This document shows, one piece after another, positions 6,006 to 63,466 of a stretch of DNA of 64,000 nucleotides. Source of the stretch: Crambe crambe (Eukaryota > Porifera > Demospongiae > Poecilosclerida > Crambeidae); contig OZ004598.1 in the NCBI GenBank assembly GCA_963924555.1, forward strand, positions 3,558,501 to 3,622,500, read 5' to 3'. The stretch's first letter is position 1. Every line of letters begins with the position of its first letter. The translations under genes and the position numbers were made by a program. The notes below the pieces were generated by a model that worked only from the letters and a program-made list of their open reading frames with translations, was not told the DNA's origin and did no database searches.

Positions 6006-13016
<7,011 letters not shown>

Positions 13017-41679: not shown

Positions 41680-44600
41680 CAGTCCGCAGGCCAGCGTACC
41701 GGAAGTGCTATTACCTAATACAATTTTACTTGCACGGGATTCGTCACTATTCGACCTTTGACCCCACATTGTTGCTTGGATACTTCCTCTTTCCAGTTCA
41801 TTATTTCGATACAGATGGGCGGAGTTGACTCAGCTGTAGCAACTACGGGTTAAGAGTGCATTGACATTCATTTCTGCGATAAATTGAACCCTGCAGACAA
41901 TAACTGTTTGTTTTATAGTGCATTTACTGTTTTTCTACTCAGAGTTCTTTTCAGTGGGGCCGTTTTTTTTTTTGCACAGTACACTGGAAATTTGAAGGTA
42001 AATATGTATGATTGTACACCATTAATTAACATATAGAACAGCATAAAAATTGTGTCCACCCACTTCTTTTATAATGAAAGCACACAATTGTTTAAAATAC
42101 ATCACTAGTGCATGTGCATTGATCAGCTAATCGAATGGTATGTGTACAATCTATAGTGTAGACTTTCCAAGTAGACACTTCATAATCCTGTCAAAAAGAA
42201 CACAACAAAAAATTAATATTACTACTGCAATAATATTCACAGGATGACAAGTTCAAGTGAGTCAGAGGTGAAGGTGGGGACTAGTTCAAAGGGACCATGT
42301 ATTCTGTGTGGAAATGCTTCCATGAAATACAAATATTTCAGAAATCTAAGCCAAAATGCACAAACATTGATTTTTCAACATTCACCTGAGGGGACAGCAT
42401 GCAGGGGCGATGACTTCGTATGTTATAAATGTGCGAAACAATCGGAGCGTAACACCCACAAAACTGAATTTCAACCAAGATGGATCCCAACAAGTATTAA
42501 AAAACAAAAACCATGTAGTATTAAAGGTTGCAATCAAAGTTACCACTGTAAAACTAACCTTGTTACACCAAGTGAACTTCAACTATTAGGAATGGAGATT
42601 TCTTTTACTGCCACTGAGACGGTTACTGAGCATGATACATCAGTGTTCCTGTGCTATAATCATTATTCTTTGATGTACGCCAAGCTGCAGACCTGTAGTT
42701 CATGTGGAGAGACAGCAAAGAGAGGGGAAGTCTTTTATCGAAAATTTCCTGCTTTTGGAATAATCAATGATTATTTAAACCATATAACTAATGAGAATCA
42801 CATTATGACCCCAGACAGTACAGTGTGTCTTCCTTGCTATAAGCATTTTCATAAACTCTCTAGAGATCTGGAAAAGGGTGCCATGGATGCTGCTACAACA
42901 GGGGTTAGAGAAATAGAAAATGCTAAAATTGAAATAGACAAACAATTGCAATCTCTAAATGATAATGTCATGGAAAGCTTCAGTGTCTCAGACTACATGG
43001 CTTGGATTAGCTGTATTAGTGCCAAAAAAATTGCATTATTTGTGCAATGATGAAGCTAAACTTTTTTCATCAGTATATCAGGAGTTCACGGCCGAGATAC
43101 AGGAGAATATTTCCCTTGTATTGACTAATCTCACCCCATCACAAGAGATCAAAATACCCGGTAAAAGGTGGCTTTTATCAAGGTCACATGATTACTTTGG
43201 TAGTTTGTTGGAAGTACACTGTAAGCATTTCAGATATGGATCAGTGTTAATGCTACGAAACTGTGACCACATAAAAGCAATTTCATCCCTATTGGGCAGG
43301 CAACATAGTCATAGTTCTGTGGCTCCAGCTACTTCTACCCCAGAAAAGGAAGACATCAAAGAAAAAATTGAAATTGTTTCCCTCTACCTCAACAAACACA
43401 TGCACCAGCAAGCTAAAGACCTAGTGGTAAGCTATCAGGATTCACCCAACAAATATCGATCCCTTAAAATCAAGGACCTTGTTAGATCCCTCGATCCAGT
43501 TTTGGTCAACTTTATAAAAGCCATCACATGTCCAGTTAAGAGTAGGAAGCGAAACCTCTTTCAGGATCCTGAATCTCTCGACACAAGGAATATTCGCCAA
43601 TTATATTCCCTCTGTGTACTACTGTTTTGTACAAACAGCAAACTACCAACCTGGAACCTAGTTCGCATCATGAACAGCAACTACCAATTGTGCTACACGT
43701 CCACAAATACTGCAATCATTGTATGTGTCTACAGGATGTGACTACATATCATACTTCCAGGGGTAGGAAAAATAAGTTTTTTGGCTACCTTTTTTCAACA
43801 TGTCAACTTTATTGCTGGGGACCCCAATCTTCCAATCTTCAATCTTCAGGAAGATTGGGTCTATAGGCACTGTAACTCTACTTCCTTCCAACCCAGAGTT
43901 ATACTCATTCCTTCGCCTTGTCGGATGTGCATATTTCAAAGCCAATGTCTCCGGCTTTAGGCGTCATACACCTGAAGCTATGTTTTATTCATTCAAGGAG
44001 CTATCACACCACTAGACCAACACTCAAAATGGCTAGCTGAAATCAGACAGGTTGTATGGGAACGTGCTGAGAGTGAAAACAAAATGTTACCTTCTACAGA
44101 GGCATTGATATTACATTGGACAAGATGTCTATGGGTAATTGAAATGTGGCACCAGTCATTACAGAATGTATTGGATTTACCAAGTAAGTTGGATTAATAA
44201 TTTCAGTATTGGTACCTACATTGACAGGTATAATTGCATGTACAGGTCTTGAAAAATTTGGCTGGAAAAGGAGTGATGGCAAGCTTGAAGTGATCTGGGA
44301 AGTGCCAGAAAACATAGCAAAGGTCCAACAAAGACATTCTCTGGCTGCAAGTGTAAAAAGGGGTGTGGAACAAGAAGATGCAAATGCATCAAAGAAGGGA
44401 AAAAGTGTGGACCAGGATGCAGATGCCTCTTATGCACTAATGTGAATCGAGTGAAGGTACCTGAATTGCCACAAGAGCTGAGAGCATTAGAAGCCGAGAT
44501 GACGATGTCAGACAATGAAAATGAACTTGTTGAAGATAGCGATGATGACTTGAGTGAGATAGACGTGGACTCTGAAACAGAACAAATAATCCAATCAGTA

Positions 44601-45081
44601 TTTGGTAGTGACTCAGAAGCAGAGGACTAGCTATTAACAGCTACCTAGTAGACTTTGCGATCGGGCCATTTTTTTTTTGCAAGAACTACAGTTAAAATAC
44701 TACCACTAACATGAATGAATTATAGTAATATACATTCTACCACAAACTTAACTGTGTCCGGTCAATCATCATGGAGAAGATCGCAGTAGAGAACCCGGGG
44801 TTAGGGGGCCATTAATCCTTCAAAAGCACCTTCTACGCACTTTTCCTGATTTCTAGTCTTACTTTTACCTCTAACCACTCCATCAGTAGGTAGTAAGACT
44901 ATCGTTAGCTAGAATCGGCGCGAAGATCATCCCAGCAGAGTCTTCTGGAACAGGCAGCGGTCCAAAAAGATCATGTCACGTCAGCACGCTTTACAAACAG
45001 GAAGCTCACCTGACACGGCTATGACGTCATTCTACGGATGCAAGTAAATTTGAGTGGGCGGGGACGCTGGCCTGCGGACTG
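41680..45081 (+). mobile_element. 3.4 kb DNA transposon with 18 bp perfect terminal inverted repeats
   Basis: CAGTCCGCAGGCCAGCGT at 41680-41697 is exactly inverted at 45064-45081, and two of the three next inner bases also match. AAAA flanks both sides (41676-41679 and 45082-45085), a possible but low-complexity 4 bp target duplication. The body carries one broken plus-strand gene (42244-44630). I cannot assign it to a named superfamily. Confidence 0.8.
42244..44630 (+). pseudogene. Cys-rich transposon-encoded protein, frameshifted and internally deleted
   Basis: The ATG at 42244 opens a frame with several zinc-binding-like CxxC pairs (CILCGNA, CYKCAK, CSSCGE, CLPCYKHFH). After an A7 run near 43024 the frame shifts by one base and continues to about 43740. 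Pieces follow in changing frames: VGCAYFKANVSGFRRHTPEA (about 43920), EIRQVVWERAESE...HWTRCLWVIEMW (about 44040-44150), a short GT-AG intron (44183 to about 44246), LEKFGWKRSDGKL, then, after another one-base shift near 44320, a CxC-type cluster (KCKKGCGTRRCKC, CGPGCRC) and an acidic C-terminus. The order matches a gene family recurrent in sponge and cnidarian genomes. The central part expected after 43740 is missing. Its enclosing inverted repeats make it the element's own gene. Confidence 0.7.
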
Positions 45082-45342: not shown

Positions 45343-48300
45343 ATGAGTTTAACAGGCTACTACAAGAAGTATCCTGAACTGATGAGCTATGTACAGAAAG
45401 ATGTCACAAGGACAAACCAAATACTTGGAGTGGGTTCTTTTGGAATTGTGGAAGAACTAGTGATTGCAGGAAAACAGCGAGTTGCAGGCAAAATATTTCA
45501 CATGGCCTTATTGGACCCAACTACAGCAGGAGTTGACAGAATACTGAACCGATTTTTACTTGAATGCCAGATGCTTTCGAAATTAAACCACCCTAACATA
45601 GTTCAGTTTATTGGAATGTGCTTTCTAAAGGATTACTCGCATCCTGTTCTTTTGATGGAACTTATGCATATAAGTCTCGACATGCACATAGAACGCAACT
45701 ACCATCAATTTCCCTTGGGAACAAAGCTGAGCATATTCTATGATGTCAGCAAAGGTTTATCCTATTTACATGGTCAAAATCCTCCAATAATCCACAGAGA
45801 TCTCACATCCAGAAATGTTCTACTCAATAAAGGTGCATCTGTGGCAAAAATAGCTGATTTGGGAAATGCTCATGTTGTGGATCTTGAAAAGGCATCAAGA
45901 GTACTGAGTCAAACTCCTGGTACTCTAGTATATATGCCTCCTGAAGCAATTACTTGCAATCCAATTTATGGCCCACCCATAGACATATTCTCGTTTGGCC
46001 ATCTTGCTCTCTACACTATGATTGAAACATTTCCAGGAGATCTTTTACCTGTAAAGAATTATGATGAAGAAGGGATACAAGTTACTGCATGCAGTGAAGT
46101 AGAGAGAAGGAAAGTTTATATTGAGATGCTGGATAAAAATTATTTTGGTCAGTTTAATTCTCAAATAATAAATGAGATTAAACGTTGTCTTCATGATTTG
46201 CCACAAAAGAGGTATGGTAAAAATAAACTAAATTGTGTAGCTATAGCTAATGTATTATTATACTATAGGCCCACTGCCGATGAAATAATGCATGTTATGC
46301 ACGTTCTACTTAAAAAACATCAAGGAGAAAATTATGAAGAAGTGGAAGAAAATTATGAAGAAGTGGAAGTTTTTGAAAATGAGGATGTAAACAAATTGGT
46401 AGTAAGTTAATGAATCTTATGTTAGGCTGTGCTAAGAAAGTGTTGACTAAACTGATAATTCATTATTAGGGCTAGCTAATTATTGTCAACCATCTTTTTT
46501 TTTGTGTGTGTTAGCTTAGTATGATTAGCTCTACTCATGATTTCACATAGATGGGGATGCCAGAATTACTGGAAATATACGTAACCTCTGGGGCTTTCAA
46601 AAAGAAAAAAGAATGGAAGGAATATGCCTTTTCTATGAAAAATTCAAACTTGACGTACAAAAAAACCAGTAAGGTAATAAAAACCAGGTTCTGTTAACAG
46701 ATTATCATGTGTGGTGACTGCTAATATTTCCGGCATATTTCACACTACTTTTAAAATTGCAGCCATACAGAATGAAAATATTGTGAGCAGTCCAATGCCC
46801 ATGTTTTTTTTGCTCAACAATGTCAGTATACCATACTTATAATTTCAGACATAATTATAATTGCAGCGAGGGAGCACAGCTGAGCGTTGTGCAATAGTAG
46901 CAATGTGCATGCTCAAATTGTAATCGCAAGATTGACTTCTACAGCTTTGTGGGCAGCCAGGCAGATTGTAGACACTAGGCTTATCTAAGTGCTTTGAGGT
47001 ATATAAGCATTGCAGCATTCTATGTATGCAGCTGCCTGCACTTGCATATATAACTCACAGCAAAATCTTCTAAGGAGTTGAAGCACAAATGAATATCAGC
47101 ACAAAAGCCTAGCTACTTGCTCGCTCGCTCGCTGTGACTCCAATGTTGTACATTGCCCAGTGATAGCTAGTCACAAGACTGTAGATAGCTGCTGACATAG
47201 CTATTCTTACCGATTTCGCTTACAACCTCATCCAATTTATTTATTTCATTTTTTGCAGGATATTGTAACTGCACCTATATCAACTATATCTTCCATCGTT
47301 ACTATGCCTTGCTCAGACTTCACTGACCAGAAATACTATTTCACTATAAAATTTACTGGCAAGCAATCTCCATGGAATTTAAGAGCTTGGACAGATGTAA
47401 GAGATTAGCATGTTCAATGATGCTCAGTGATTGATCACTCTTAGCTACTTGCTTATAATTCATCTTGGAACCATAAAATTAATCAGAGAGAGCGGTAGCT
47501 CTCTCTATCTAGGGATGACGTGGACGGCTGCGCGTGCCGCCTACAGTGCCACAGGCTTAAAGAGTAGAACTTTTGTATTTTTCATGTTTCTGTGTTCCAA
47601 GAGTTTATATTTCTAAGCTACAGGTCAGAGGGGTCTGAAACTCAGCAAGGATATAAATCAGCTATCACTCTCACTACATTACAACATTACAAATATCAAT
47701 GTTGAAAATGAAACCGTATTGTTTATAAACAACTGCATGCGAAGGTGGTGTGGGATTCACTTTTTTTAGCTCATAATTTCTATAATTCATTTAGTGAAGG
47801 CCTACAGTCTTGAACATTTCTTCCACTAGCATTAGTATCACCTCTACAGTTCTCTTTGCCATCCTAGCACAAGGTAAGTTTCCACAATATTCTTTTTTTC
47901 CTTCATATTTTAGGTCCTAATGTGTTTAGATCATAATAATTGTCCAAATATTGTAGTTAAGATTTATTATTTGAAAAGCATGTCCAGCTGGTGTCCAGTT
48001 TACATCGCTCCTAAAATCGAGTTCCATCCTCCAACGGTTTCTGCGTTACAGCATAGATACTATACTCCGCCCTGGGATTGGAAACGGAATCTGCGCATCC
48101 AAATTTTTCCATTACAACAGTACAAAACATGCGCGGACACTCCGTGTTGTACACAGCAAAAAATCTACAACTTGTAAGCATTCTGTAACAGGTATGTAAC
48201 AGAACAAAAATCGGTAAACCCTAGGCACCGGAAGTACTAATTTTTGATCTGTAGGCATGCAGTCGGTGGGGCAGCAGGTCTGACACAGTCCAAAAATACG

Positions 48301-51300
48301 GACCTGTTACAGACTTGTAGATTTTACTGACCCGTTACAGACCTGTGTACAGGTCAGAATATCTCTCTCCCAAACTGCTTTTGCTCTACTGAATTTATAG
48401 CATTAGTAAGTTACCTAAAGTTTGACCATCTTTTTACCGTATAGATTCTATTGCTCACCTTATAATAACGAAAGAAACCTCTGTTTCTACGGCTTGTTGA
48501 CGACCATTACTATAATTATAGCGAAAAATCTACAACTTGTAACAGGTCTGGACTGCCCCACATACCAGTTATCACTTCAAGAAATAAATATATGTACAGA
48601 ACTTGTTGGGGTGAAAATGTCTATAAAAAGAGGAGTTGAGCATTATTTAGCTGCAAATAGGATTGGGATATCGCTTTAGCTTGTTTATAACAAGTGTGCT
48701 ACAATGATAATCAGTTGGAGGTATGATAGGGTCTTAACTGGTCGGGGGAAGAACATCAGTACTACAATATTAAAAGAAAAGTTCAATCATGCAAATACTA
48801 AAGCTAGGACTAGATTATCGCTTGAGCAATGTAAGATTTGGTGTACTCTTGTAATGATGCACTTTTGCTAAGATCTATAATTATTATCAGAGAGCACGGT
48901 AGCGCTCTCTATGTAGGGATGACCTATGACCCTCCATAGGACTAATACAAAATGAAGTAGGATTTTCTCAGAAAACAGCAAGTTTTAGCTGCTATGACTG
49001 CTTACCCTGTCTTTTATGCACATTCTAATCATGCAGGAGAATTTTGGAGGCTGAAAGGCTCAACACGGAAGAGCAATAAAAGCACATTTTTTCACGATTT
49101 CTCATTCTTCTTGTTCTTAATCATAATATTCTTCATAATGGCACAATCTGGAGAAAAATTGGGTCGCGCTTGGGCCATGTTCTATATATGAATCTGTTCC
49201 ATTCTACTCGGACCAGGTCCACGTCCCATCGGTTAAGCTTCTAGTTCAGTAAGAAAAAAGCCGCTATCTTAGACTATACAATTACAAAGAAGCCTTAACG
49301 CGCATGCGTAATAAACATATCTAGTTAGTTGCCACATAGATTGTATAAACTACGTAACCGGGATTGGAAACGCAATATAAACTGCCCGGCCACTCCTTAT
49401 TGCGCATGCCTGCATTAATTAATACAATAAGAAAAAAGACAATAATTATCAAATTTGGGTATTAAGTGTGCAGCCATTGATCCTGGTGATTTTTTTCAGG
49501 TTCTTCTTCACCTCTGCACCTTCTTGTTCTCTGCCCGAACTATGAGTGAAGATATTGAAGCCTCCCTCTCTGTTGATCATCCCTGAGGAATATAATATTA
49601 AAAATTAATGTACTCTAATCGTTGAGCTTTTTCTTGGCAAGGGAATGCATACATTTGGAAAGCATAGGTGGAGGGCATGAAGGAATAACTACTTGTTATG
49701 AATATAAATTGGGGTCACTAGAAATAACTTCACTTTTTTTAAAAAGGTACGCAAAGACACACCCTGCAAATGTGAACTATTGGCTGAAACTCTTGAATAC
49801 ATCCAAAGTTCACTACATTTTAGGTATGAGGGCATGAAGTAGAGTGTACACTAAACTCTGAAACTGTAAGTTGAATATTTACTCTTTCATGTAAGAGGAT
49901 ACAGGTACACAAAGCCAAAACAGGCTAAAACAGGCTGGTATGGATGTCCTAGCAGCAAAAAATTTGCTTTTTGCACGAGTAAGGTGGTGAAGTTACTAGC
50001 TATGCTATGGACACTTCTGAACTTCGAGAGGTCGATTCCTCCACGTTTGGCTTTTTCAGCTCTTCCATGCACCACAATACGGATTGTACCACGCATGTTG
50101 TATTGTTGTCATGGGGCGTTTCCAATCCCGGTTACGTAGTCTATACAATCTATGGTTGCCATGACTCTCGATCACGTTCGCTTTCTTCTCAGGTCAGAAC
50201 GAGTAAGCTTAAAGATAAGTTAGTAGCTATGGACAGTGTATAAACGTTGAACACTCGAGCCCGCATTATTTTAAAAAGTTAGCCAGCTGATTGAGCCAGT
50301 TCGAACTAGAAATCTCACACTACATTGCTTACCAGGCTTGGTTGTGATCCAAACATAGAAGTATGAATTTCATGAGCAAAGATTTTGTACAGTTGTACTT
50401 CAAAAAAACAAAACAAAAAAAAAACAGACAAAAAAATCTATCTCATCCCGGCCAGGCCAGGGCCAGGGCTACGCTCTAAATCTTATGGTGTAACTGGTTG
50501 TAGATTCGGCATAACAAAAAATATATACAGCACTAAGCACCTGCAAAAAGAAATCACAAGTATACTAAGCCACTATAATGAGGTAGTTAGAAATTCGGCA
50601 CTAATGACCTCCTGCAAAAAGAAAACATTTCCATTAAATAGAAACAAGTAAGGAAAAAAACATTTATTCTAATAAACGAAGGATGACTGGTCAAAAAAGA
50701 GTTGGAAGAAGGGCTAAATGTATATGCAAGGATGAAGTCGAATCCAGGTGCAGTCACTAGGTGATGGAACCGCATTCGACTTCATCCTTGCATATACATT
50801 TAGCCCTTGTTCCAACTCTTTTTTGACCAGTCATCCCTACATCATCTTCGTTTATTAGAATAAATTTTTTTTCCTTACTTGTTATAATAGCTAATATACT
50901 GACATTGATCAGCTAGCTATGCCGCTTAGCTAATTGAGTAACATGACATAAAACCATGACTATAGCTGTGCATTGTGCATGTAGCTACATGAGCTGTATA
51001 GCTGGGCTATGTATTTATTTAGCTATATTAGCCATGGGTGGAAGGAAGTTTCACTTGAGTGCTCAAAAATCTTGCAGAAAGAAGCAGCAGCAGAGAGCGA
51101 TCAATGGGCTTATATCACCACCAAAAAAGCACTTACCACCTCTCCTTATCTCGTTTTCCATTACATCATACCTTGGAAGAGAAGTTGATGCCTGGCACTG
51201 CTCAAGCTACATACAAGACTCAATTTTTTTTTGGTTTATCCACCAATGTGGATCATTCTCAATGCACCCAAAATAGCTACCTGTTGATTGAGTACCTCAA

Positions 51301-54300
51301 TCAAAGAATCCTCATCAAGAACAACATCATCTGTATAACTATATAGCTGAAGATTTGAAATGGAGCATTATATCATTTCATTTCCCAACTACAAACTGCA
51401 TGAGTCCTATGAATTGTGAATTACTGTGGGATTTAGTATATCAAGTGTTCCAGCTATATTGAAACCATTTCAAATCATCATTCATTTCATCATTCAATCA
51501 TTTCATCATTCATCATTTCATAATCATTTCATGACCATGTTTTTATTTTCTCCATTTGATGCAGCTACCTATAGCACCAGTGCTGTAGTCTGGCTTCAAA
51601 TATTGAAACGACGGTTTCATTCTTGATGATATCATCTGCTAGTAAAGCATTGATTCAGCAACAGACCTGTGATAATTTATTAGCAAATTTATTGTATTGC
51701 TAATGATGATTGTTATTTATAGCTACTTGTAAGTACTATAGCTTACCTTGTCCTTTCAGCTCATATTGTCCTAGCGACAATCATTTTCGTACGTATAAAT
51801 TCTCCTCCAACACGGAGTGTCCGTGGGAAATCTCCCGTCTCCAATCCCGGGGCGGAGTATAGTTACAGCAAGCACCACGTGGCCTCATTAGTTTGCCGCC
51901 ATTTTCCCACTGTAGTTTTGCATGCAGCTACAGATCTGTAAAAAGATGGCAGTCGACATGTTAGCAAGTTTTTTTTAGCTAAGACATGCAGGGGTCTGCA
52001 TCTTATATTTTCTTTCTATAGGTCTGTAAACTTACAGCGGGAAAACTAGCGAGGCTGGCACGTGGTGCTTGTGACGTCACATCTTGCTACAATTCGTTGC
52101 TGAAGCCGAGCTTTTACTCCAGTCTAGCGATAAACGCAGCTGTAACGCAGAAACCGTTGGAGGGATGGAACTCGATTTTAGGAGCGATGTAAACTGGTAG
52201 GGTCTGCAACATGAAAAATCAATATCCTAGTTTTGCATAACTTGCACCTGTTTTAAGTAGAGGGGGTTGCTTAAACAGCCACACCTTCAAATCCTGGGTT
52301 TGTGATTGCTTAACAGAGAAATTCACTCGCGATGTACATTTTTGCGGTGTCAGCAAAAATGAGGTTAAGGGTCAAATTTGGAATTCAAATTTTGGTGGCT
52401 CTAAGTGTTGTGCTCACCTTGACTACCAAGTTGCTTCAAATTGAGCTGCTATAACTCCTGAAACAGAGCCTTGGACCCCTTATTCGCAAGCAGATGAGTT
52501 ATCTTGGAGAAAACAATCAGCTGTGCTAGATGGGGGTCCATGAGAGGGCAATCCATCAATATTTGGTTGTTTGGGGCTTGGTTCAAGATATGTAATGATG
52601 AAATCAGAATGAACCCAAGGGGTCCTTTGCCATCTGGGCAGTGTACTTTCAGTTGTTATAATAAGTGTGTGGTTAGTATCTCCCCCTTAGTTGTAGAAAT
52701 GAGTGCACCGACATATCAAAACTACTCTACAGGGCTGGAAAAGATGCAAGAAGGAGCATATTAGTTTTGGAGGACCCATGTTGGCTTCACTGGTAGGCAG
52801 CATTGATTAAATTATTAGTTGCACAAAATCGAATCCGGTTTGTGTGCATCATGAGTGTAGGCAAAGAATCACACCTGTAACCTTGCACGTGTCACTTCAA
52901 AGATATCTTTTGGAGCACTTGGGCTTACTTTTCAAGGTCACACATTAGATAACTCGGTGCATACTAACTGTGATTTGAGGTGTGACCTTGCATGTGTCAC
53001 TTTAAGTTTGAGTGTAATAGCTAGCTACAACACAAATTTTGGGATGCTTCATCTGTTAAGGAAATCACATACTCCGAAAGATATCTTTGAATGACACGTG
53101 CATGGTCACAGGTGTGATCATAAAAGGAAATCACAGTTAGTATGTACCAAGTTATCGAATGTGTGACCTTGAAAGTGAAAGCCAAAATGGATGTATCATG
53201 TATACATAGATTGTTTCTTTCTTTGACCGTAGCCTTAGATGATATAGTAACTGCATTAGTTCCTAGCTCTCTTCTAATTACGCTACTTTAGAGGAGAAAC
53301 ACAAATTATCAAAGAAAAATAGACATGGCTAAGCAAGTAGGCATGGTCAAATTGTATAATAGCTTGGAAACAAAAAGGGAGTTTGCAACCCCCTCCCCTG
53401 GATCCAGCTCTGCTCCAGGAGGCTGAGTAAGAGTCAGGCCCACATAATTTTTATAGTGTGTTCATGATGTCCATGGAGGAGAAGTAGTTCCATGGTGTTG
53501 TAATCAGGCATATGTGCACTTGCATAATAATGGTGAAACAGATCATCGGAGACATAGAATTATTTAAAAAAAGACTTTTGATCACCAAAAGATACAACAA
53601 ATAAGAATGATTCAAATAGATTCCTTGTCAAAGATAAGTCTACTTCCTTTCATTTCACTCTCTGGAGCATCTTACTAAATCTACTATAGTTTTTCAACTT
53701 CTCTATTTTCTGTTATTCCTTCATCTTGTCATCCAAAACTCAAACTAGACCTCACATTTCCACCTACAAATTCTTCTGGCATTATGGATGCATCGGGGAT
53801 TGGGCATATCTGAGGATACCACCTTTTCTACAAATTTGTATGTGTTGTATGGGTACCTCTCCCTTTCTTGTAACTGTTTGTCGATTAGTTTCTTATAACC
53901 AAGTTCGCTAGGAAATGGCATGGAGTGATAAGCAAGGAACAAACAAAACACGACATGCTCAACTTCACTGCTACTAGATTCATGTTTGCTGTCCACAATG
54001 AATATGCACATACTTTGACACAAGCATCTCAGAGGGTACAACCACAGGATCTAGGAACAGATGGGCAAAACTAGCATAGCAATATTAACCACATTCTCAT
54101 TTGCATTGCATGACTAATCTGGGGCCTATTGACATGAGAGTATAGTCTATTATGTGAGGGCATAGTCTAGCTGCTAGACCTTTTTTCCTTTCAAAATAAT
54201 TGAAAATGGACTAGTGACGGCAATACCTCAGACCTACCTCTACACTGAGAAGTCACATTTCTAGTCCTTGGTAGTCACTGCCTTTCAGGTACGTTTGAGC

Positions 54301-57300
54301 AGACCCCTTCAGTTCCACTTCTTATTGGAGCTTCGATCCTGTGTACAGTTTCCAAAAACCGGCAATTTTTATATGGGGATAGAACTTAGTGGTGAATTGT
54401 TATGCCATGGACAGAACACCATGTGGTCTTGCTTAGCCAACTGGAGTAGTTTGAACAAGTGTTGATATGTTGGTGTACTTATTTCTACAACTGGAATCAA
54501 GATTAAGGGGGAGTTACTAACCACACACCAACTGGAAGTACACTGCCCAGATGGCAAAGGACCCCTTGGACTCATTCTCATCTCATCATTACATATCTTG
54601 GACCAAGCCCCAAACAACTGAACATTGAGGGCCTGCCCTCTCATGGACCCCCATCTAGCATAGCTGATTGTTCTCTCCAAGATAACTCACCTGCTTGCGA
54701 ATAAGGGGTCCAAGGCTCTGTTTCAGGAGTTATAGCAGCTCAATTTGAAGCAACTTGGTAGTCAAGGTGAGCACAACACTTAGAGCCACCAAAATTTGAA
54801 TTCTAAATTTGACCCTTGACCTCATTTGTACTGACACCGCAAAAATGTACATCGTGCAAGTGAATTTCTGTTAAGCAATCCAGGGCTGGATCCAGGATTT
54901 TCAGATAGGTGGGGTTGCAGGACCATGAGGGAAGGAGCATAGTTATTTGGAGGACCCATGTGGGCCATTCACTGGTACTCAAACTCAAGGTGACACATGT
55001 ATGGTCACACCTCAAATCGCAGCACTGAGTTATACCTTAAAAATGTAAGCCAAAGATATCTTCGAAGTGACACGTGCAAGGTCACAGGTGTGATTGTTCA
55101 AGAAATCACAGTTGGTATGCACTGAATTATCCAATGTGTAAATACAATCCGAAAGATATCTTTGAAGTGACACGTGCATGGTCACAGGTGTGATCGTAAA
55201 AGGAAATCACAGTTAGTATGCACCAAGTTATCCAATGTGTGACTTTGAAAGTGAAAGCCAAAATGGATGTGTCATATATACATAGATTGTTTCTTTCTTT
55301 GACTGTAGCGATCGTAAAAGGAAATCACAGTTAGTATGCACCAAGTTATCCAATGTGTGACTTTGAAAGTGAAAGCCAAAATGGATGTGTCATATATACA
55401 TAGATTGTTTCTTTCTTCGACTGTAGCCATAGTAACTGCATTAGTTCCTAATTTAGTTGGTCCACACGTGTAACATGTTCTCTCTTCTAATTACACTACT
55501 TTAGAGGAGAAACACAAGTTGTCAAAGAAAAATAGACATGGCTAAGTAAGTAGCTAGGCATGGTCAAATTGCATTTTCATTTTATAATAGCTTGGGAACA
55601 AAAAAGGGGGGGTTGCAACCCCCTCAACCCCTGCAATCACAAACCCAGGATTTGAAGGTGTGGCTGTTTAAGCTTCAACCCCTCTACTTAAAACAGGTGC
55701 AAGTTATGCAAAACTAGGATATCGATTTTTCATGTTGCAGACCCTAAAACTGGACACTAGCTGGACATGTTTTTCAAATAATAAATCTTAACTACAATAT
55801 TTGGACAAAATTATGATCTAAACACATTAGGACCTAAAATATGAAGAAAAAAAAGAATATTGTGGAAATTTACCTTGTACTAGGACGGCAAAGAGAACTG
55901 TAGAGGTGATACTAATGCTAGTGGAAGAAATGTTTGAGATTGTAGGCCTTGACTAAATGAATTATGGAAACTATGAGCTAAAGAAAGTGAATCCTACACC
56001 CATTTTAGGTACCTTCGCGTGCAGTTGTTTACAGTTTCATTTTCAAACATTGATATTTGTAATGTAGTGAGAGTGATAGCTGATTTATATCCTTGCTGAG
56101 TTTCAGACCCCTCTGACCTGTAGCTTAGAAAATATAAACTCTGGAACACAGAAACATGAAAAATACAAAAGTTCTACTCTTTAAGCCTGTGGCACTGTAG
56201 ACTAACACTGAGACCAAGGGATCTACGGTCTATTTAGAAACCTGAGAGCCCTGGGCTGTAGCGGCCGAGCGCAGCGAGGGCGCTACTAAGGGCCCGAAGG
56301 TTTCTAAACAGACTGTAGATCCCGTTGGTCAAAGTATAGCCAATCACTGGTATTGTTTAACTTACCTCAATACACACTTGGAAACAATAACCATGGTTTT
56401 TAAATGCAACGAACGTGAATCAGAGTGCACCTAGAAACAATAACTGTGGCCACCGCACGCGATGCGTTGCTAGAATTGGACCAATTACCATCTTTACCGA
56501 TTCATTCATTGGATTCATCCTAGGGCAAGTGAATTCTAAGGCGTGATTCTAAGTGAATAGAATTCACCAAATGGACCAATGAGATTCCTTGATTGTGACT
56601 AGCTATAGTCTAATACAAAAGTGAAATTCTAGTTCCCCCACTTAGAGTCAGACTTAACAAAAGCTACTGTGAATGATTATCCATCCTACTACAAAGTGCA
56701 GACCAAGTTTCAGGACCAGGGAGCTTACCGTTTCAGAAATACGGCAAGCAGGTAAATCGCTGGATTTCTCTATTGTTATTGTTATTCTTCTTAGACTACG
56801 TACCATATCTCTCGAACCACTCAAGCTACAGCTATGATTTCTGGATAAATCCACTTCAAATTCTACCAGCTACGATCTTTTACACTAGTCAATTCTCGAA
56901 AGAGTCGATGTAAAAGGAGACACTACGGAGCACAGTACTCGACTAACTTAATTATTGGAAGCCTATAATACGCATGCACACGTATTTCATATCCAATTAT
57001 TCGAAATTATAATAATATTACTCAACTAGCTGTATGTACGTACTCTGAACTCTAGCTCTATCAACTCGGAGATTTTAGATCGCTGAATCATCTACCAGTA
57101 TAATTTGGCGCTCAGGGCTGGTGACACGTAATACTTGGACTTGTTCGAGGCAGGAAGTGCCAGATGATGCTTCCATTTGTCACGATGACGCATTACGCGC
57201 GCAGTGGGCAGAACCGCAGGAACATCTCTCCTAGATAGAAAAGCATCCAACTGTTCAAAATCGTATGGATTGGTACCCCAATCTAACAGCAGTTCGGTCG

Positions 57301-60300
57301 GCAGCATCTTTCAGTGATGTTGCAGAGCATGTGGATTGCGAGCGCTTTTAAATGACGTCATCCAGTGGCGCGTGACGTCACTTCGCGTCACTAAATGCCA
57401 GAATACGTCACATAATAATATTCATTAATTTAGCAGATTTCTCGTTAAATGAACAAGTCCAAGTATTATGTGTCACCAGATTACTACTGGTAGACAAGGC
57501 TGGGTAGACTGTATTTCAGATTCATCTGCATCTTCAACCTCCAAGTATAAGAGCTCAACACTAACACTTCAAGCTTTGACTCGCTGATAAATAATCATTT
57601 GGCTGCTATGCTATTGGAGAACTATTCTTCTTTCATCTGTCCCTGCATACACATAGAAGAATGAACTCTATACATAAAAGAGAGGGAAAAAAACCAGGCA
57701 AAAGTAAGGGAAAAAACATTTCCATGAAATGAAAAAAATGTAGCTAGCTCTAGCTCGTAGACTACTCTTAGTCCATCAACTCGGGGATTTTAGATTCACC
57801 AATCCATCTACCAATAGCAGATTCATCTACATCCTCGGCCTCCTCAACACTTTAAGCCTTGACTCGCTGATAAATAATCATCGGGCTGCTATATATGCTA
57901 TTGGAAAACTATACATCTCAAGAAACTTCTGTCCCTACATACACATAGAAGAACGCATTATGCATACATACTGTAATAAAACCATAAAGACAGAAGAAGA
58001 AAAAAGACCATGAACAAGTAAGGGAAAAAACATTTCTGTGAAAAATATGTAGGGATGACCATTGCTCGAAAAAGTAAGGAAACAAGGGTAGGGATGAAGG
58101 ATCAATCTTTGTTCTGCATATCCAGCCAACAATCCCTACATATACATACATTTAATACCGTGAAGCTACCTGACGTATATGTAGGCTGGATATGCAGAAC
58201 AAAGATTGATCCTATTTGCATTCTTCATCCCTACCCTTGTTTCCTTACTTTTTTGAGCAATGGTCATCCCTACATTTTTTTTATTTCACAGAAATGTTTT
58301 TCCCTTACTTGTATAGGAAGGTGTCATGGTAGTAATTTGTTCACTGTTAGAATAGCAATCCGTTCTTCCATCTTATCAGTACACTAATGATGATATATTC
58401 TGTGAAATAATGTCATCTGTTTTGGTCATTTTCTTTCTATTGATTTAATAATAAGTAAGAATGAATTTACTATAGTTATCATTATGCTTCCCCACTCAGC
58501 AAAAACGTAAGAACTGGATAAGTGCCTTAAAGCGATGCATCATGATAGAAAAAAGCAAAGATTGCGAGGCTGTGCCAAAGTCTCCCTTAAAGAAAATGTT
58601 CTCTAGATCTTCAAGAGTTGATATGCTGAACTCACAAACACAAGATATGGCAGAAACTATGGCTAGTTATGATCTCCCTTTGCAGCATCAAGTATTGGAA
58701 GATTCCAGTCAAATGTATTCGGGTCAAACTGAATCACCATATGAATATTTACCAGATGATAATAGCTCTGATAGTTATGAAAACCCATTTCTTATTGAGT
58801 CACGTGGTCCAAATGATTCACTACCTTCTCTGCCATCCAGCAGTTCTGAAATTACCGACTATCACAAACCACCACCTTCTCTCCCATTCAGTCAAAGTAG
58901 CTACTTATCCCCATCCTCTCTACCCATTTCCCCAAAAATTCATGGTACTTCAATTGCTCCTCAGAATGATGAAGCTTCAAGTGGAGCAGGTGACATTCCA
59001 TTTGCTATTGCATCCAATGATGCATATGGTTGCAGTCCTTCATCTCCTCTGTCCAGCAGAACTGATCACATTTCAAATGCTCAGGATGATGCAGACCCAC
59101 ACAGTTCACTTATGTCCACTGAGAGTTATACTTCAGTGATATCTTCATCTCCTCTGTCCAGCAGACCCGATGGAATTTCAATTGTTCAGGATGATGTAGA
59201 CCCACAGAGTTCACGTTTGTCCAATGACAGTTATACTGATATGCTGACGGTTTCACCCGCCTCTGTATCACAATCAGCTCTCCTTGAGAAATCAGAAACA
59301 GTGGTCCCTGAAGTTCTCCAGCCATCACCTTCATACAGTCCCGATTATTACAGTGATGATGAGTGTAACCTTCCTCCAGTCATGGATACACTTAATATTC
59401 CATTTTGTTCACCCGACTTGTCTTCACTGGAAGCATCAGTTTCTTCACAGCAATGTGCTCATTTGAAACGTACTATTTCAGAGAAAAAAGATTCATCATC
59501 ATCTATCTCTTGTTCTTCTCAGAGAGAGCAGTGTGCTAACATGGCAGAAGAGCAGTCTTTAATCAGTGGAGATGACTTTCCACCCACTGAAGAAGTATAC
59601 ACATTCAAAACTCCGGTATTGTCCAGGAGTTCCTCACCAAATATACCACAAAATGTAAAAAGCAAGCATGTTTCACCAAAGCAACAGGCAACATATCAGC
59701 CCCCTATGAATTTGAAAGCCATTTCTTCTTCTGTGACTGAAAATTTTAGTATACCTTTGGAATTACCTTCATCTGATATCACAGAAAGTTTGAAGACAAG
59801 TCCTGCTTCACCTAAGGAGTTTCAGACACATGCCCTGAATATGATGCAGCAAAGTTCAAAAGCCATGCAAATGACATATGCTCATAATGCACCAGGGACA
59901 ACCGAAGCAGTTCAGCACCAGAGTGTCATTCAAGAAAGGCACAGTCCCTCTCATGAAGTAACGTCTCCAGATTTCAGTGGGAAGAGAGAAAAAATTGTAA
60001 GTAGCTATACATAATAATGGTTAATACATGTATATCATTCTATAGCCTCGTACCCAGGCCTGCTTTTTTCGCGGGGCGGTGGAAAAGCGAAGGGCCTAGT
60101 ATAAGTTGCATGCGTATGCGCTCCATCCCCCCATTTAGAGGGGATTCGCTATAATTTTCGGGCACGTCCATTACACAAATCGTAATAAACATTACATTAT
60201 CGTAATTTTGAGAGCTGAGTCAGCAGCTAAGCTCTAGACTGTTCTGTCTTTCTGCACTAGATTCAACTCACCTCACTCCCAGAAGCGTTCTGTGCAAGCT

Positions 60301-63300
60301 GTTTATGAAAGAAGTTATTTGTTTGTGTCGCTACCAACTGGTTAGACGAGAAGAGTCGCTGCTATCAAAGTATCATGTCTTACCTTTTGTTTTTTACCAT
60401 AAGCTTGGCTTGCTGTTCTTGTTGTATCTTAGTTTATTTTCACTGATGTGGATAAGGTCTGGAGCTAGCTAGCTAAGCTGCACTGATTGAATGCGCACGT
60501 GCTACATACGTTTTTATGATTACATCATTCATCATGGACGAAATTTACGTTTTTATGATTACATCATTCATCATGGACGAAATTTTACGTATTATTTCGT
60601 GTCTAATTAAGCGCATGCAGATGCAACTTATACCAGGCCCTTCGCTTTTCCACCACCCCGCGAAAAGAGCGGGCCTGGGTACGAGGCTAATCATTCTATT
60701 GATAATTTTCAGCAAAGAACAAGCGCCGTCAAAGATCCAGCATCTCATACACATATGTTAATGGATCTCTGTTTGAGTGAGTTTAGTCACATAATAGTTG
60801 TTGTAGCTATGCATCAACCTCTTTGTTATTCATAGAAGAACTGAAGAAAAAGACTCCATTAATTGATCCCAAGAATTTGTGAGTCAAAATTATTGTATCG
60901 TTAGGTATCCATCATGCAGGAATATTGTAGGCTTATCACAGATAAAGATGATATACACTCAAATCCAATGCCTCCCGAACTCAGAAGACTAGCCAAAGCT
61001 AATTCACGTGTGTTACTACTATGTATATTATACAATAGCTACTCTTATTACCAATTTATTTGCTAGAATCACTTATGACTGATCAGCTGTTAGAGTCTCT
61101 TGATCATATGAGGAAGCAGGCTCTTTTCATACCTATATCAAAATTAAGCAACATAGAACTCATTGCAGGAGGTAGCTATAATGTAATTTATGATACAATA
61201 ATGATTATTGTACTGCATGCAGGTCATTTTGGCACACAATATACAGCAGAACTTTCACAAAAACCATCTGGTCAAAGGATCAAAGTAGTTATGAAGGCAG
61301 TTAAAAAACCTCTGAGTCAGAAGGAGAACTTTATCAAGGACCAAGCAATTATAGCAGATATGATACACCCAAACATTGTTCGTTTTTTTGGAGTTGTTGA
61401 CCAAGGTAATGAATCTTTTAATATTATCCCTTTAGCAGCTGTAGGTGCCATACCTCCAATGCTGGTCATGATTTTATATAGCTACCATGTTTTAAATTGA
61501 TGCGTGTGTGTATGCATTATATTAATATTAAATTTTTATTCATACTCAGAACTACCATGGATCATTTTTGAGCAGCTAGCAAATGGTGACTTGAAAAAGT
61601 TTTTGCAGGTAGCTAAAGACTTATTTTGATTCTACAATTGAATAGCATTCTTATTATAAAATAACTCAGAATAATGAACGACCTGTTGAAATGCTACTTC
61701 GTTATATGTTGGATACATCTCTGGGACTGCGCTATATTTCTGAAAAAGGACTAGTTCATCGGGTAAGGCTATGGTTGTAGAAAACATTGACCTAATGATT
61801 ATGATCAAGCTGATTACAGTGTTATCAGAAGTAGATTAATTGCTACAAACTGACCGAGTTTTATGGATTTCTATAAAATCTGGGAAAAGTAAAAATTCAA
61901 AGGAAGTGACATCATTCTCACTTTAATATGTATACAAATTTATTTTGACCAACCTACAGTACCTACAATAGAAGAGGGAAATACTTATAACAAGTTATTT
62001 TGAACTGTCTGAGTTTTCTTTTTCCTGTCTGTTGCAGGATGTTGCAGCTAGAAATATTATGGTTAGTATCAATGAAAGGTGTAAGGTTGGTAATTTTGAT
62101 CTTCTGAAGAAGCTACGACAGGAACAAGACCACAAGCGAGTGTACGTCACTCATAGTGATACGCCCATGGCAGTTAGATGGATGGCTCCAGAGAATTTGG
62201 ATGTCGAAAAGAAGCTTTTTTCCACAGCTTCTGATGTGTGGAGTTTCGGAGTGCTCCAGTGGGAAATTAGACATCCATTTGATACTCCATACAGTGTTAG
62301 TCTATAATATCAGCTACTATATACTGGGCTATATTAACATAGGTTAGCACATCTGCTTCATTCTATATATAAGGGATGGAATTTGTTACTATTACGACAT
62401 GACATGATTTAAAAGTGATCATAGAATATGACATCCATATGTGACCGGCTCTGGGAAAACCCTCCGTCGGGTGAAAATTAAAAATTTTTTGTTATGGTAA
62501 AATTTATTATCTATGGCCCTTTGGCTCTTTATTGCGCAAATTTCAAAGCTATAGCTTTTATGACGCCTGAGGAACAGCTCTTAGAAGGATCGAGGTAGCG
62601 TCCATTAGCGTTATTGTTTTTTCGAGAAAAGCTGACTAAGCAACGTGAACATTATTTCCGGACATGCCCGTGGACTAGTAAATTGACGGTGGGTGGGGTT
62701 TCGAACTGTAGTTAGTAAGAAGCTAGTTTCTTGCCTTTTGGCTCGAGAAAGGTCCAACCGAAGCTCCGAGAAGAGAAGCAAGGTACCGAAGGTAGCGCAG
62801 ATAGCTTAGTAAGTTCATATTTCCCAGCGCATAAGCTGGAAAGCCTGCCTAAAGTTCAATGAATTTCAGCCTGACTAGAATCTCCGTGCACGAAGCTTCA
62901 ATGGCTGACTAGCTAACTTTAGCGCTTCATTTGAAGCCTTTGTACTTGTAGTCTGAGCTCCAAACTTCATCTGTGCTTTGTTCAAGGATCATATTTGTCA
63001 TTTATGCTTAAAAAAATTTTTTGCCAAATTTTGGCACTGCCAACTAAACGTGCTCATATCTGATAATTGATTTTTGCACCGGACGGAGGGTTTTCCCAGA
63101 GCCGGTCACATATGATACTATACAGTGTCAGCTTAAAATACTGTATTAGCCAGTCAGGGCTGCCACTTCTATTCCCATTGGATGCAATATTAAAACATTC
63201 AATTCTGGGGGAAATTTGTTACTAGCTATGTATTACCAATATTGCTATAGACATGACATGTTGCATGTGATTTTAACCAATTATAGGATATGACTAATGA

Positions 63301-63466
63301 AGAGGTGAAGCAACGTGTCATAAGTGGTAAAGCCAGACTCCAGGTTCCCACTGACTATCCTGCAATTGTACAACAGATCATGAGAGCATGTTGGCAAGAT
63401 GAACCTTCAGAAAGACCCAGCTTTTTGCTCATATCTGAACTCCTTGCTAATTTAACTATTTATTAA
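45343..63466 (+). CDS. Kinase - PH - linker - pseudokinase protein, 14 exons (probable single gene)
   Basis: Exons: 45343-46211, 46269-46401, 46551-46673, 47259-47396, 58500-59996, 60713-60776, 60836-60878, 60931-61007, 61067-61171, 61223-61405, 61550-61608, 61670-61762, 62038-62295, 63287-63466. Every junction is GT-AG and phases join to 3,822 nt (1,273 aa). Kinase 1 (about residues 20-310) has GVGSFG, Lys50, Glu74, HRDLTSRN (Asp153), DLG (Asp172) and PPE (Glu201), and looks catalytic. It resembles tyrosine-kinase-like kinases. A PH domain follows (about 337-435; WISALKRC end). The linker (about 436-1000) is Ser/Pro-rich with an internal tandem repeat (SSPLSSR...QDD.DP). Kinase 2 (about 1008-1273) is tyrosine-kinase-like: Lys1041, HRDVAARN and WMAPE are kept, but DFG reads NFD (1147-1149) and the alpha-C Glu is not evident, so it is probably a pseudokinase. 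Joining kinase 1 to the PH exons rests on the donor at 46402 (GTAAGT one codon on, or GTAGTA) and needs transcript proof. Otherwise there are two adjacent genes split near 46410. Confidence 0.7.
46212..46268 (+). other. 57 bp intron open in frame
   Basis: GTATGG...CTATAG lies between LPQK and RPTADEIM of kinase 1. Removing it restores the usual QKRPTADEI subdomain XI motif. Its length is a multiple of three and it contains no stop, so retention would add 19 residues without breaking the protein. Confidence 0.8.
48890..48930. repeat. Short AGAGCACGGTAGCGCTCT palindrome
   Basis: CAGAGAGCACGGTAGCGCTCTCTATGTAGGGATGAC resembles CAGAGAGAGCGGTAGCTCTC...TAGGGATGAC at about 47483-47520. TAGGGATGAC also recurs in the palindromic elements at 50644 and 58014. 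Confidence 0.5.
49335..50154. mobile_element. 820 bp element with 7 bp target duplication
   Basis: The ends CATAGATTGTATAAACTACG and CGTAGTCTATACAATCTATG (inverted) extend through CGGGATTGGAAACGC, about 40 bp in all. GTTGCCA flanks both sides (49328-49334 and 50155-50161). It lies inside element Y. No coding potential is recognised. Confidence 0.88.
50644..50882. mobile_element. Near-perfect palindrome (MITE), about 100 bp arms
   Basis: The left arm starts ACAAGTAAGGAAAAAAACAT and the right arm ends CCTTACTTGT. Inner arms around TTCGACTTCATCCTTGCATA pair almost perfectly about a short loop at about 50755. It shares its ends with 58014-58312. Confidence 0.88.
52730..53400. mobile_element. Element W' (related to W) inside X
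   Basis: CAGGGCTGG at the left and CCCCTG at the right delimit a copy related to W. It shares GGAGGACCCATGT, the GGAAATCACAGTTAGTATG block and the ATACATAGATTGTTTCTTTC block in the same order. Confidence 0.6.
54881..55633. mobile_element. Element W: third nesting level, inside X
   Basis: W interrupts the right arm of X. Removing 54881-55633 restores the arm sequence TTAAGCAATCACAAACCC seen in the left arm and in the solo copy at 45220. CAATC flanks both sides as a 5 bp target duplication (6 bp if the preceding G is counted). W contains a 118 bp tandem duplication (55192-55427). Confidence 0.75.
56206..56612. mobile_element. Repeat family R1, copy 2
   Basis: The sequence from GAGACCAAGGGATCTACGGT onward matches 26934-27330 over the foldback head and the tail that follows, with scattered differences. 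It directly adjoins the right end of element Y. Confidence 0.8.
57092..57307 (-). other. Unrecognised 71-codon ORF starting with ATG
   Basis: It reads MLPTELLLDWGTNPYDFEQL at its start and has unbiased, protein-like composition with an upstream CRE-like TGACGTCA (about 57355 and 57373). I recognise no family. Part of it (the KSKYYVSP segment) is repeated inverted at 57440-57475, so it may be the end of a mobile element. It lies inside an intron of the two-kinase gene on the opposite strand. Confidence 0.3.
57508..58040. repeat. Diverged direct duplication, about 0.25-0.3 kb unit
   Basis: The block TTGACTCGCTGATAAATAAT, with following CATACACATAGAAGAA and AAGTAAGGGAAAAAACATTT, occurs at about 57575-57730 and again at about 57858-58035. 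The preceding CATCTACATCCTCGGCCTCC also has a counterpart. It leads into the palindrome at 58014. Confidence 0.65.
58014..58312. mobile_element. Near-perfect palindrome (MITE), about 130 bp arms
   Basis: ACAAGTAAGGGAAAAAACAT at the left pairs with the inverted right end CCCTTACTTGT. Inner arms pair around ATCAATCTTTGTTCTGCATA. It ends 187 bp before exon 5 of the two-kinase gene. Confidence 0.88.
60043..60689. mobile_element. 647 bp MITE with 8-9 bp target duplication
   Basis: The ends are TAGCCTCGTACCCAGGCC and inverted GGCCTGGGTACGAGGCTA, continuing through AAAGCGAAGGGCC. ATCATTCTA flanks both sides (60034-60042 and 60690-60698). The duplication size and TAG start would suit a hAT-type element. 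It contains a 40 bp tandem duplication (about 60508-60590). It lies between exons 5 and 6 of the two-kinase gene, 24 bp upstream of exon 6. Confidence 0.88.
62441..63109. mobile_element. 669 bp MITE in the last intron of the two-kinase gene
   Basis: GTGACCGGCTCTGGGAAAAC and inverted GTTTTCCCAGAGCCGGTCAC mark the ends, extending through CCTCCGTC. ATAT flanks both sides. No coding potential is recognised. Confidence 0.88.

Follow-up and report, generated by a model that had tools for sequence, protein, structure and literature searches.

A candidate fusion of a tyrosine kinase-like kinase, a PH domain and a tyrosine kinase-type domain in the sponge Crambe crambe

The window analyzed here, a stretch of 64,000 nucleotides from the sponge Crambe crambe (C21:3558501-3622500), carries at positions 45343-63466 of its forward strand what is, judged by sequence, very probably a single gene for a protein with two kinase domains: a tyrosine kinase-like (TKL) kinase 1, a PH domain, a long linker and a tyrosine kinase (TK)-type kinase 2, in that order. 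We read the locus as one gene because at each of the five loci with this arrangement in the genome kinase 1 and the PH domain can be linked across a phase-0 intron, because the block duplicated between two contigs corresponds to the two-kinase unit, and because the two kinases diverge in lockstep across loci; given this comparison of paralogs the case for one gene is strongly argued. An earlier note on this DNA had described the layout as an active-like kinase, a PH domain, a long linker and a C-terminal pseudokinase. Sequence and paralogs support the layout, and the term pseudokinase suits the window copy (C21, with NFD at the DFG position), but it does not describe the family as a whole, since kinase 2 is intact in two relatives, C5b1 and C20.

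Our own splicing of the sequence gives the C21 gene 14 exons and 13 introns, all of them GT-AG, and a product of 1,273 amino acids; the spliced frame has no internal stop and one stop at its end. Exon 1 (45343-46211) encodes kinase 1 up to LPQKR and contains the Gly loop GVGSFG, VAGK, HRDLTSRN, DLG and PGTLVYMPPEA. It is followed by a 57-nt in-frame intron (46212-46268) through which the plain open reading frame reads; removing it restores LPQKRPTADE in kinase 1, and the near copy of the gene on contig C17 has a matching intron in the spliced alignment. Exon 2 (46269-46401) completes kinase 1 and adds an acidic, Tyr-bearing tail (NYEEVEENYEEVEV). The earlier note had held that the kinase frame ends by reading through a donor, and this is what the sequence contains: past 46401, after GTA, stands GTAAGT at 46402, and retention of the intron would add VVS before a stop at 46410. 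Spliced out as the note had proposed, the kinase 1/PH intron (46402-46550) is of phase 0, with the acceptor ACATAG before 46551, and leads into the PH exons; the nine further introns that had been placed in phase after these likewise yield the stop-free splice of 1,273 codons. Exons 3 (46551-46673) and 4 (47259-47396) encode the first and middle parts of the PH domain, and exon 5 (58500-59996), beyond an 11.1-kb intron (47397-58499) enlarged by repeats and measuring about 0.3 kb in the C17 copy, encodes its C-terminal helix and then the long Ser/Pro-rich linker of about 560 residues. The end of the linker and the start of kinase 2 lie in exons 6-9 (60713-60776, 60836-60878, 60931-61007 and 61067-61171), and kinase 2 from its Gly loop into lobe C in exons 10-13 (61223-61405, 61550-61608, 61670-61762 and 62038-62295), which hold VVMK, a Glu to Asp change in helix alpha-C, HRDVAARN, NFD replacing DFG, and RWMAPE; exon 14 (63287-63466) brings the end of kinase 2 (ERPSF) and the stop codon. 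Tyr motifs are found twice in the tail (YEEV) and at several places in the linker (YDLP, YEYL, YENP, YTSV and YTDM).

A domain search of the 1,273-residue product, which the earlier note had asked for, returned two kinase domains and a PH domain by Pfam. PF00069 (2.1e-70) and PF07714 (2.5e-96) each match two stretches, at both ends of the protein, and PF00169 matches residues 352-435 (1.8e-7; 32.0 bits, the cut-off being 25.1). No family other than kinase and PH came up at E up to 0.01, and neither FERM nor SH2 nor SH3 was found. The PH domain is itself informative about the splicing. Taken singly, its first exon, its second exon and the first 41 codons of its third exon match no family at E up to 1, the first two of these joined reach 21.0 bits, and the 100-residue stretch made from all three parts reaches 36.2 bits against the same cut-off of 25.1; this growth exon by exon supports the splices 46673/47259 and 47396/58500, the latter across the 11-kb intron. 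The PH domains of the five fused loci and of C20 can be aligned, PF00169 matches all six, and a profile built from them finds PH domains of solved structures with E down to 3.6e-6.

Kinase 1 alone matches PF00069 with 2.7e-36, and its top PDB chains (among the best 60 of 2100) are CTR1 and TNNI3K, then one titled EGFR, then BIK1, SymRK and roco4, with IRAK4 lower; apart from the EGFR-titled chain, we take these to be TKL or IRAK-like kinases, and the P+1 loop GTLVYMPPEA presumably to be of Ser/Thr type. A tree puts kinase 1 with TKL kinases and apart from the TKs of the same genome (98/94), and by sequence kinase 1 is assigned to the TKL group. For kinase 2, the nearest PDB chains (among the best 60 of 2656 and of 2301) are one titled EGFR, then mainly Eph receptors and FAK/PYK2; in a tree with the TKs of the same genome it falls within them (100/100), and one group (98/95) unites the kinase 2 domains of all five fused copies with that of C20. 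Its HRDxAARN and RWMAPE-type motifs and its nearest relatives class it as a tyrosine-kinase-type domain, and on these assignments the two kinases of one chain stem from different kinase groups, TKL and TK. Two of 18 kinase 1-type loci were left out of the kinase 1 tree (L026, which is the same gene as C13solo, and L052, which is too short), whereas all 13 TK-type loci were kept for kinase 2. This genome has a huge expansion of TKL kinases like kinase 1, with at least 136 matches, exon pieces included; they form clusters on C9, C12, C13 and C18, and inspection by eye of the kinase 2 family matches listed showed none next to such a cluster.

The family was assembled by searching the 143.1-Mb assembly (119 contigs), with kinase 1, kinase 2 and the PH part as separate queries, and aligning the candidate regions; the genome-wide match lists are lower bounds. 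Five loci, C21 and four others, carry kinase 1, the PH domain and kinase 2 in this order and on the same strand, and this recurrence makes the layout more than a matter of chance. The C17 copy (C17:5511757-5505645, reverse strand) is a near copy of C21, identical at 1,126 of 1,263 aligned residues; in the spliced alignment its exons keep the order seen in C21 and are free of stops, 15 exons being predicted, of which the division made by an extra linker intron is doubtful, as the frame is open without it. The remaining three are C5a (C5:1592619-1599125, forward strand) and the tandem pair C5b1 and C5b2 (C5, between 3836890 and 3824861, reverse strand), each of which shares 41-44% identity with C21 in each kinase. 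At about C20:4460100-4466300 lies a relative made up of a PH domain, a linker and kinase 2. The 24.6 kb upstream of it yielded no kinase 1, and a phase-0 acceptor before its PH exon indicates that some upstream exon is probably present. C20 is placed among the fused copies in the kinase 2 tree, with weak support (80/79), and may be either ancestral or a locus that has lost kinase 1. Its linker (L039, C20:4461667-4462809) is a Pro-rich, adaptor-like frame of 381 codons with the Tyr motifs YLEL and YDIP. Only the kinase and PH parts of these loci were used for comparison, the C20 PH models and the C5a and C5b2 linkers from the spliced aligner being unreliable; the C20 PH domain was assembled by eye, and the start of the C5b1 kinase 2 given by the aligner (MAGQFG) is probably wrong at an exon edge. 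An M20-type peptidase frame (PF01546 and PF07687; L037:5533-6249, reverse strand) lies on the same strand as C5b2, apparently in an intron of that gene, and the C5b2 linker alignment passes through it. A cross-species scan of prokaryote contigs yielded nothing closer than kinases of 25-33% identity, at 14 loci.

At the junction, the kinase 1/PH intron measures 149 nt in C21, 144 nt in C17, 49 or 97 nt in C5b1 (depending on the donor), 193 nt in C5b2 and about 1.2 kb in C5a. The donors of C5a (GTGAGT at 8682) and C5b2 (GTACAG at 9830) were set by eye; the donor chosen by the aligner in C5b2 is also of phase 0, and in C5a the aligner added a mini-exon. In C5b1 an in-frame stop stands directly before the PH exon and the first ATG of that exon is codon 22, from which it follows that coding sequence must be spliced to it from upstream; the frame of kinase 1 stays open up to a donor 49 nt away. 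The block shared by C21 and C17 (45315-63482 in the window) holds the two-kinase unit and almost nothing besides: it begins 28 nt ahead of the kinase 1 ATG and ends 16 nt (by eye, about 60 nt) past the stop codon of kinase 2. Elsewhere in a comparison of 84 kb of C21 with 40 kb of C17, ten pieces match over more than 100 nt; they are scattered, measure 106-240 nt and are 67-84% identical. Pairwise identities over the five loci agree between kinase 1 and kinase 2 with r=0.998, and for the four loci that remain without the near copy with r=0.976, the best of 24 relabelings. Weaker support for one gene comes from the C21-only stretches of at least 70 nt relative to C17, all five of which fall within predicted introns. 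Of two C17-only stretches, one (about 209 nt) falls within the exon of the linker and leaves the C17 frame open (648 codons from 10703), and exons are accordingly not free of length change. This additional linker sequence is at C17:5508315-5508524 (C17.fa 11476-11685) and is in frame. The linker is partly self-matching (59039-59212) and may grow by repeats.

The catalytic Lys, Glu, HRD Asp, Asn and DFG Asp of kinase 1 are kept in all five fused copies, C21 having DLG for DFG with the Asp retained. Kinase 2 differs among the copies. C20 (VAVK, HRD, DFG), which is unfused, and C5b1 (VAIK, HRD, DFG), which is fused, have the full catalytic set; HRD is altered in C5b2 (VAVK, HGD, DFG); and three copies are pseudokinase-like, namely C21 (VVMK, alpha-C Asp, HRD, NFD), C17 (VVMK, alpha-C Asp, HRD, NFG) and C5a (VALK, HRK, DLE). 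As the DFG Asp is gone and the HRD Asp kept in C21 and C17, and in C5a the HRD Asp is gone and the Asp of DLE kept, inactivation is taken to have occurred at least twice; these residues place the loss of the DFG Asp before the split of C21 and C17, and make the loss of the HRD Asp in C5a a separate one. Without the DFG Asp expected of an active tyrosine kinase, the kinase 2 of C21 is predicted with good confidence to have lost normal catalysis.

Between C21 and C17, dN/dS is 0.71 for the whole protein; part by part, kinase 1 has 0.49, the PH domain 0.56, the linker 0.89, kinase 2 0.32 and the tail of 29 codons 1.56. Conservation is highest in kinase 2, where 260 of 272 residues are identical (dN 0.019, dS 0.060; 22 changes, of which 12 are nonsynonymous and 10 synonymous; binomial p=0.0098), and this part of the pair is under purifying selection; such conservation of a degenerate kinase 2 is not what one expects of a domain in decay. 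Nonsynonymous changes are marginally below the neutral expectation in kinase 1 (22 of 34, p=0.046) and not significantly so in the PH domain (20 of 28, p=0.17) or the linker (87 of 115, p=0.31), nor is the tail significantly fast (20 of 23, p=0.42); these p values come from five tests and are uncorrected.

The protein encoded by such a gene would be cytoplasmic and would consist of the TKL kinase 1, the acidic tail with its Tyr residues, the PH domain, the linker and the TK-type kinase 2. Kinase 1 would be the working Ser/Thr kinase and provide the catalytic output, the PH domain would place the protein at a membrane or a partner, and linker and tail could offer docking sites that depend on phosphorylation. 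In C21, kinase 2 would transfer no phosphate and would still fold, regulating or scaffolding kinase 1; in three copies it would have moved from tyrosine kinase to regulator or scaffold, and copies with an intact kinase 2 would combine Ser/Thr and Tyr kinase activity in one protein. That kinase 2 regulates kinase 1 we regard as an even call, and the explanation as a whole, a PH-targeted Ser/Thr kinase with a former tyrosine kinase as its regulatory or scaffold module, as a reading we lean towards.

Several observations weigh against parts of this account. The kinase 2 of C21 keeps its VAIK-type Lys and the HRD Asp, and residual or unusual activity is possible; the selection test on kinase 2 draws on 22 changes only and does not tell which of the two copies is constrained. 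By eye, the PH core has no clear basic motif of the kind associated with phosphoinositide binding. The 11-kb intron could impair splicing of the C21 copy. At the junction, the stop at 46410 past the donor makes a kinase-1-only product by intron retention possible, and the PH exon starts with ATG in C21 (46551) and C17, which is compatible with a separate gene start, though this does not apply to C5b1. In the kinase 1 tree the fused copies do not emerge as one clade, and the free tree needs two changes; an approximately unbiased (AU) test does not reject one clade of fused kinase 1 copies (p=0.334), so that a single fusion event is compatible with the tree, the lockstep identities being the better evidence. 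Polyadenylation signals do not discriminate one gene from two: none of five hexamers occurs in the four junction introns of C21, C17, C5b1 and C5b2, nor in the 534 nt past the kinase 2 stop of C21.

Among the alternatives, the one that survives best, and still an unlikely one, is that C21 is a decaying duplicate and the C17 copy the working gene. It would account for the five stretches that C17 lacks, including 10.8 kb in the PH intron, for the further change in the DFG motif of C21 and for the dN/dS of 0.71 over the whole protein; yet the 14 exons show neither a stop nor the loss of a splice site, all five of those stretches are intronic, and nonsynonymous changes are in deficit in both kinases, albeit in a copy that the test does not identify. 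Somewhat less probable is one gene whose kinase 2 is no pseudokinase in C21 and still works by unusual chemistry; CASK is a kinase of that sort. The Lys of VVMK, the HRD Asp, the catalytic-loop Asn, an activation-loop Tyr and RWMAPE are all retained in what is also the best conserved part of the pair, but the DFG Asp has become Asn and the alpha-C Glu has become Asp in both C21 and C17, and in C21 the DFG Gly has become Asp in addition. A role of kinase 2 as a decoy for pathogen effectors is improbable: the bait idea has been stated for plant tandem kinase-pseudokinases, which share the order of kinase and degenerate kinase (PMC6170490, in the part available), but nothing in this analysis links the C21 gene to immunity, and the PH domain and linker are without counterpart in the plant proteins, none of which is described there as having additional conserved domains. 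Least probable of all are two adjacent genes duplicated as a pair, the first a TKL kinase that stops at 46410, the second a PH-linker-TK gene from 46551: the stop right after the donor, the ATG at 46551 and the occurrence of both parts elsewhere in the genome (C20, and the many TKLs of kinase 1 type) would fit it, against which stand the phase-0 junction available at every locus, the short gap of C5b1 with its stop and its 21 codons free of ATG, a duplicate block bounded by the joint coding unit, and the lockstep divergence of the kinases.

As a single gene with two kinases, the C21 locus is comparable to several known systems, proteins with two kinase domains of which one is inactive being an already known kind. 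In JAKs, the best known case of a pseudokinase half regulating a kinase half, the order is FERM-SH2-pseudokinase-kinase, and both kinase domains are of TK type. C21 resembles JAK and TYK2 in uniting a kinase, a pseudokinase and a membrane-targeting module in one polypeptide, but its TKL kinase comes first, the PH domain lies between and the TK-type domain comes second; with only kinase and PH families found by Pfam, the absence of FERM-SH2 sets it outside the Janus kinases, and the reversed order and the PH domain in place of FERM-SH2, which the earlier note had singled out, are both upheld. Tec kinases (PH-SH3-SH2-TK) share the N-terminal PH domain and C-terminal TK, as seen in the unfused C20, whereas the C21 product lacks their SH3 and SH2 domains by Pfam and has a TKL kinase in front. 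The available part of one source names PH together with TK only in the Tec layout (PMC8662651).

Plant tandem kinase-pseudokinases have the kinase first and the pseudokinase second, with pseudokinase halves that diverge at catalytic positions and no additional conserved domains, and WTK1 (Yr15) is described as a WAK-RLCK fusion (PMC6170490, as far as that text was available). The likeness to C21 is one of layout only and would thus be convergent; the C21 protein has a PH domain, a linker of 560 amino acids and a second kinase of TK type, and so does not fall among them. Obscurin is an animal protein with two kinase domains across a long disordered stretch, of which PK1 of Drosophila is a pseudokinase that binds PK2, the pseudokinase half being suggested by the authors to regulate or scaffold its partner (PMC10129394, in the part available); it differs from C21 as a muscle giant of CAM-kinase type with the pseudokinase first, and that part of the source mentions no PH domain between the kinases. 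Choanoflagellates have GPCR-TKL/K and GPCR-TK fusions, the latter also found in early-branching animals (PMC12716839, in the part available); these, too, are lineage-specific fusions of TKL or TK domains with signaling modules near the base of the animals, but there the kinase is joined to a 7TM receptor and not to a second kinase. In a literature search over titles and the opening of abstracts, with subscription papers and kinome databases outside its scope, no TKL-PH-linker-TK protein with graded loss of kinase 2 was met.

On the usual view, a pseudokinase comes about once a kinase domain has acquired a role in binding or allostery that outlasts catalysis, and there would be value in cases that display the successive steps together while the partner domain remains fused at each of them. 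One genome here holds an unfused PH-TK, fused copies with an intact or near-intact kinase 2, and fused copies with differently inactivated kinase 2. The chances seem to us evenly balanced that a TKL-PH-TK family was built near the base of the animals, that its TK stages from intact through partly altered to pseudokinase, with inactivation at least twice, persist in one genome, and that it is a convergent counterpart of the plant kinase-pseudokinases; if true, this would be a natural series of a kinase turning regulator while its fused partner kinase stays active. Should transcripts bear out the gene, a fusion of two kinase groups would join the animal kinome and the order of events would become testable.

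Upstream of the gene, at 43776-44630, lie open frames of which one has a weak Tesmin/TSO1-like CXC match (18.9 bits against a cut-off of 23.5); they are perhaps part of a mobile element or of another gene. Three of the sequences absent from the C17 copy have features of their own. A short element with 42-nt terminal inverted repeats (95%) occupies 62436-63114 in the last intron, and about 650 nt at 60043-60690, in the intron after exon 5, have inverted ends by eye. The largest, the 10.8 kb at 47482-58320 inside the PH intron, contains nested inverted repeats (47541-47684 with 56057-56200, and 47747-47937 with 55810-56000, both at 94%) and looks like a composite transposable element.

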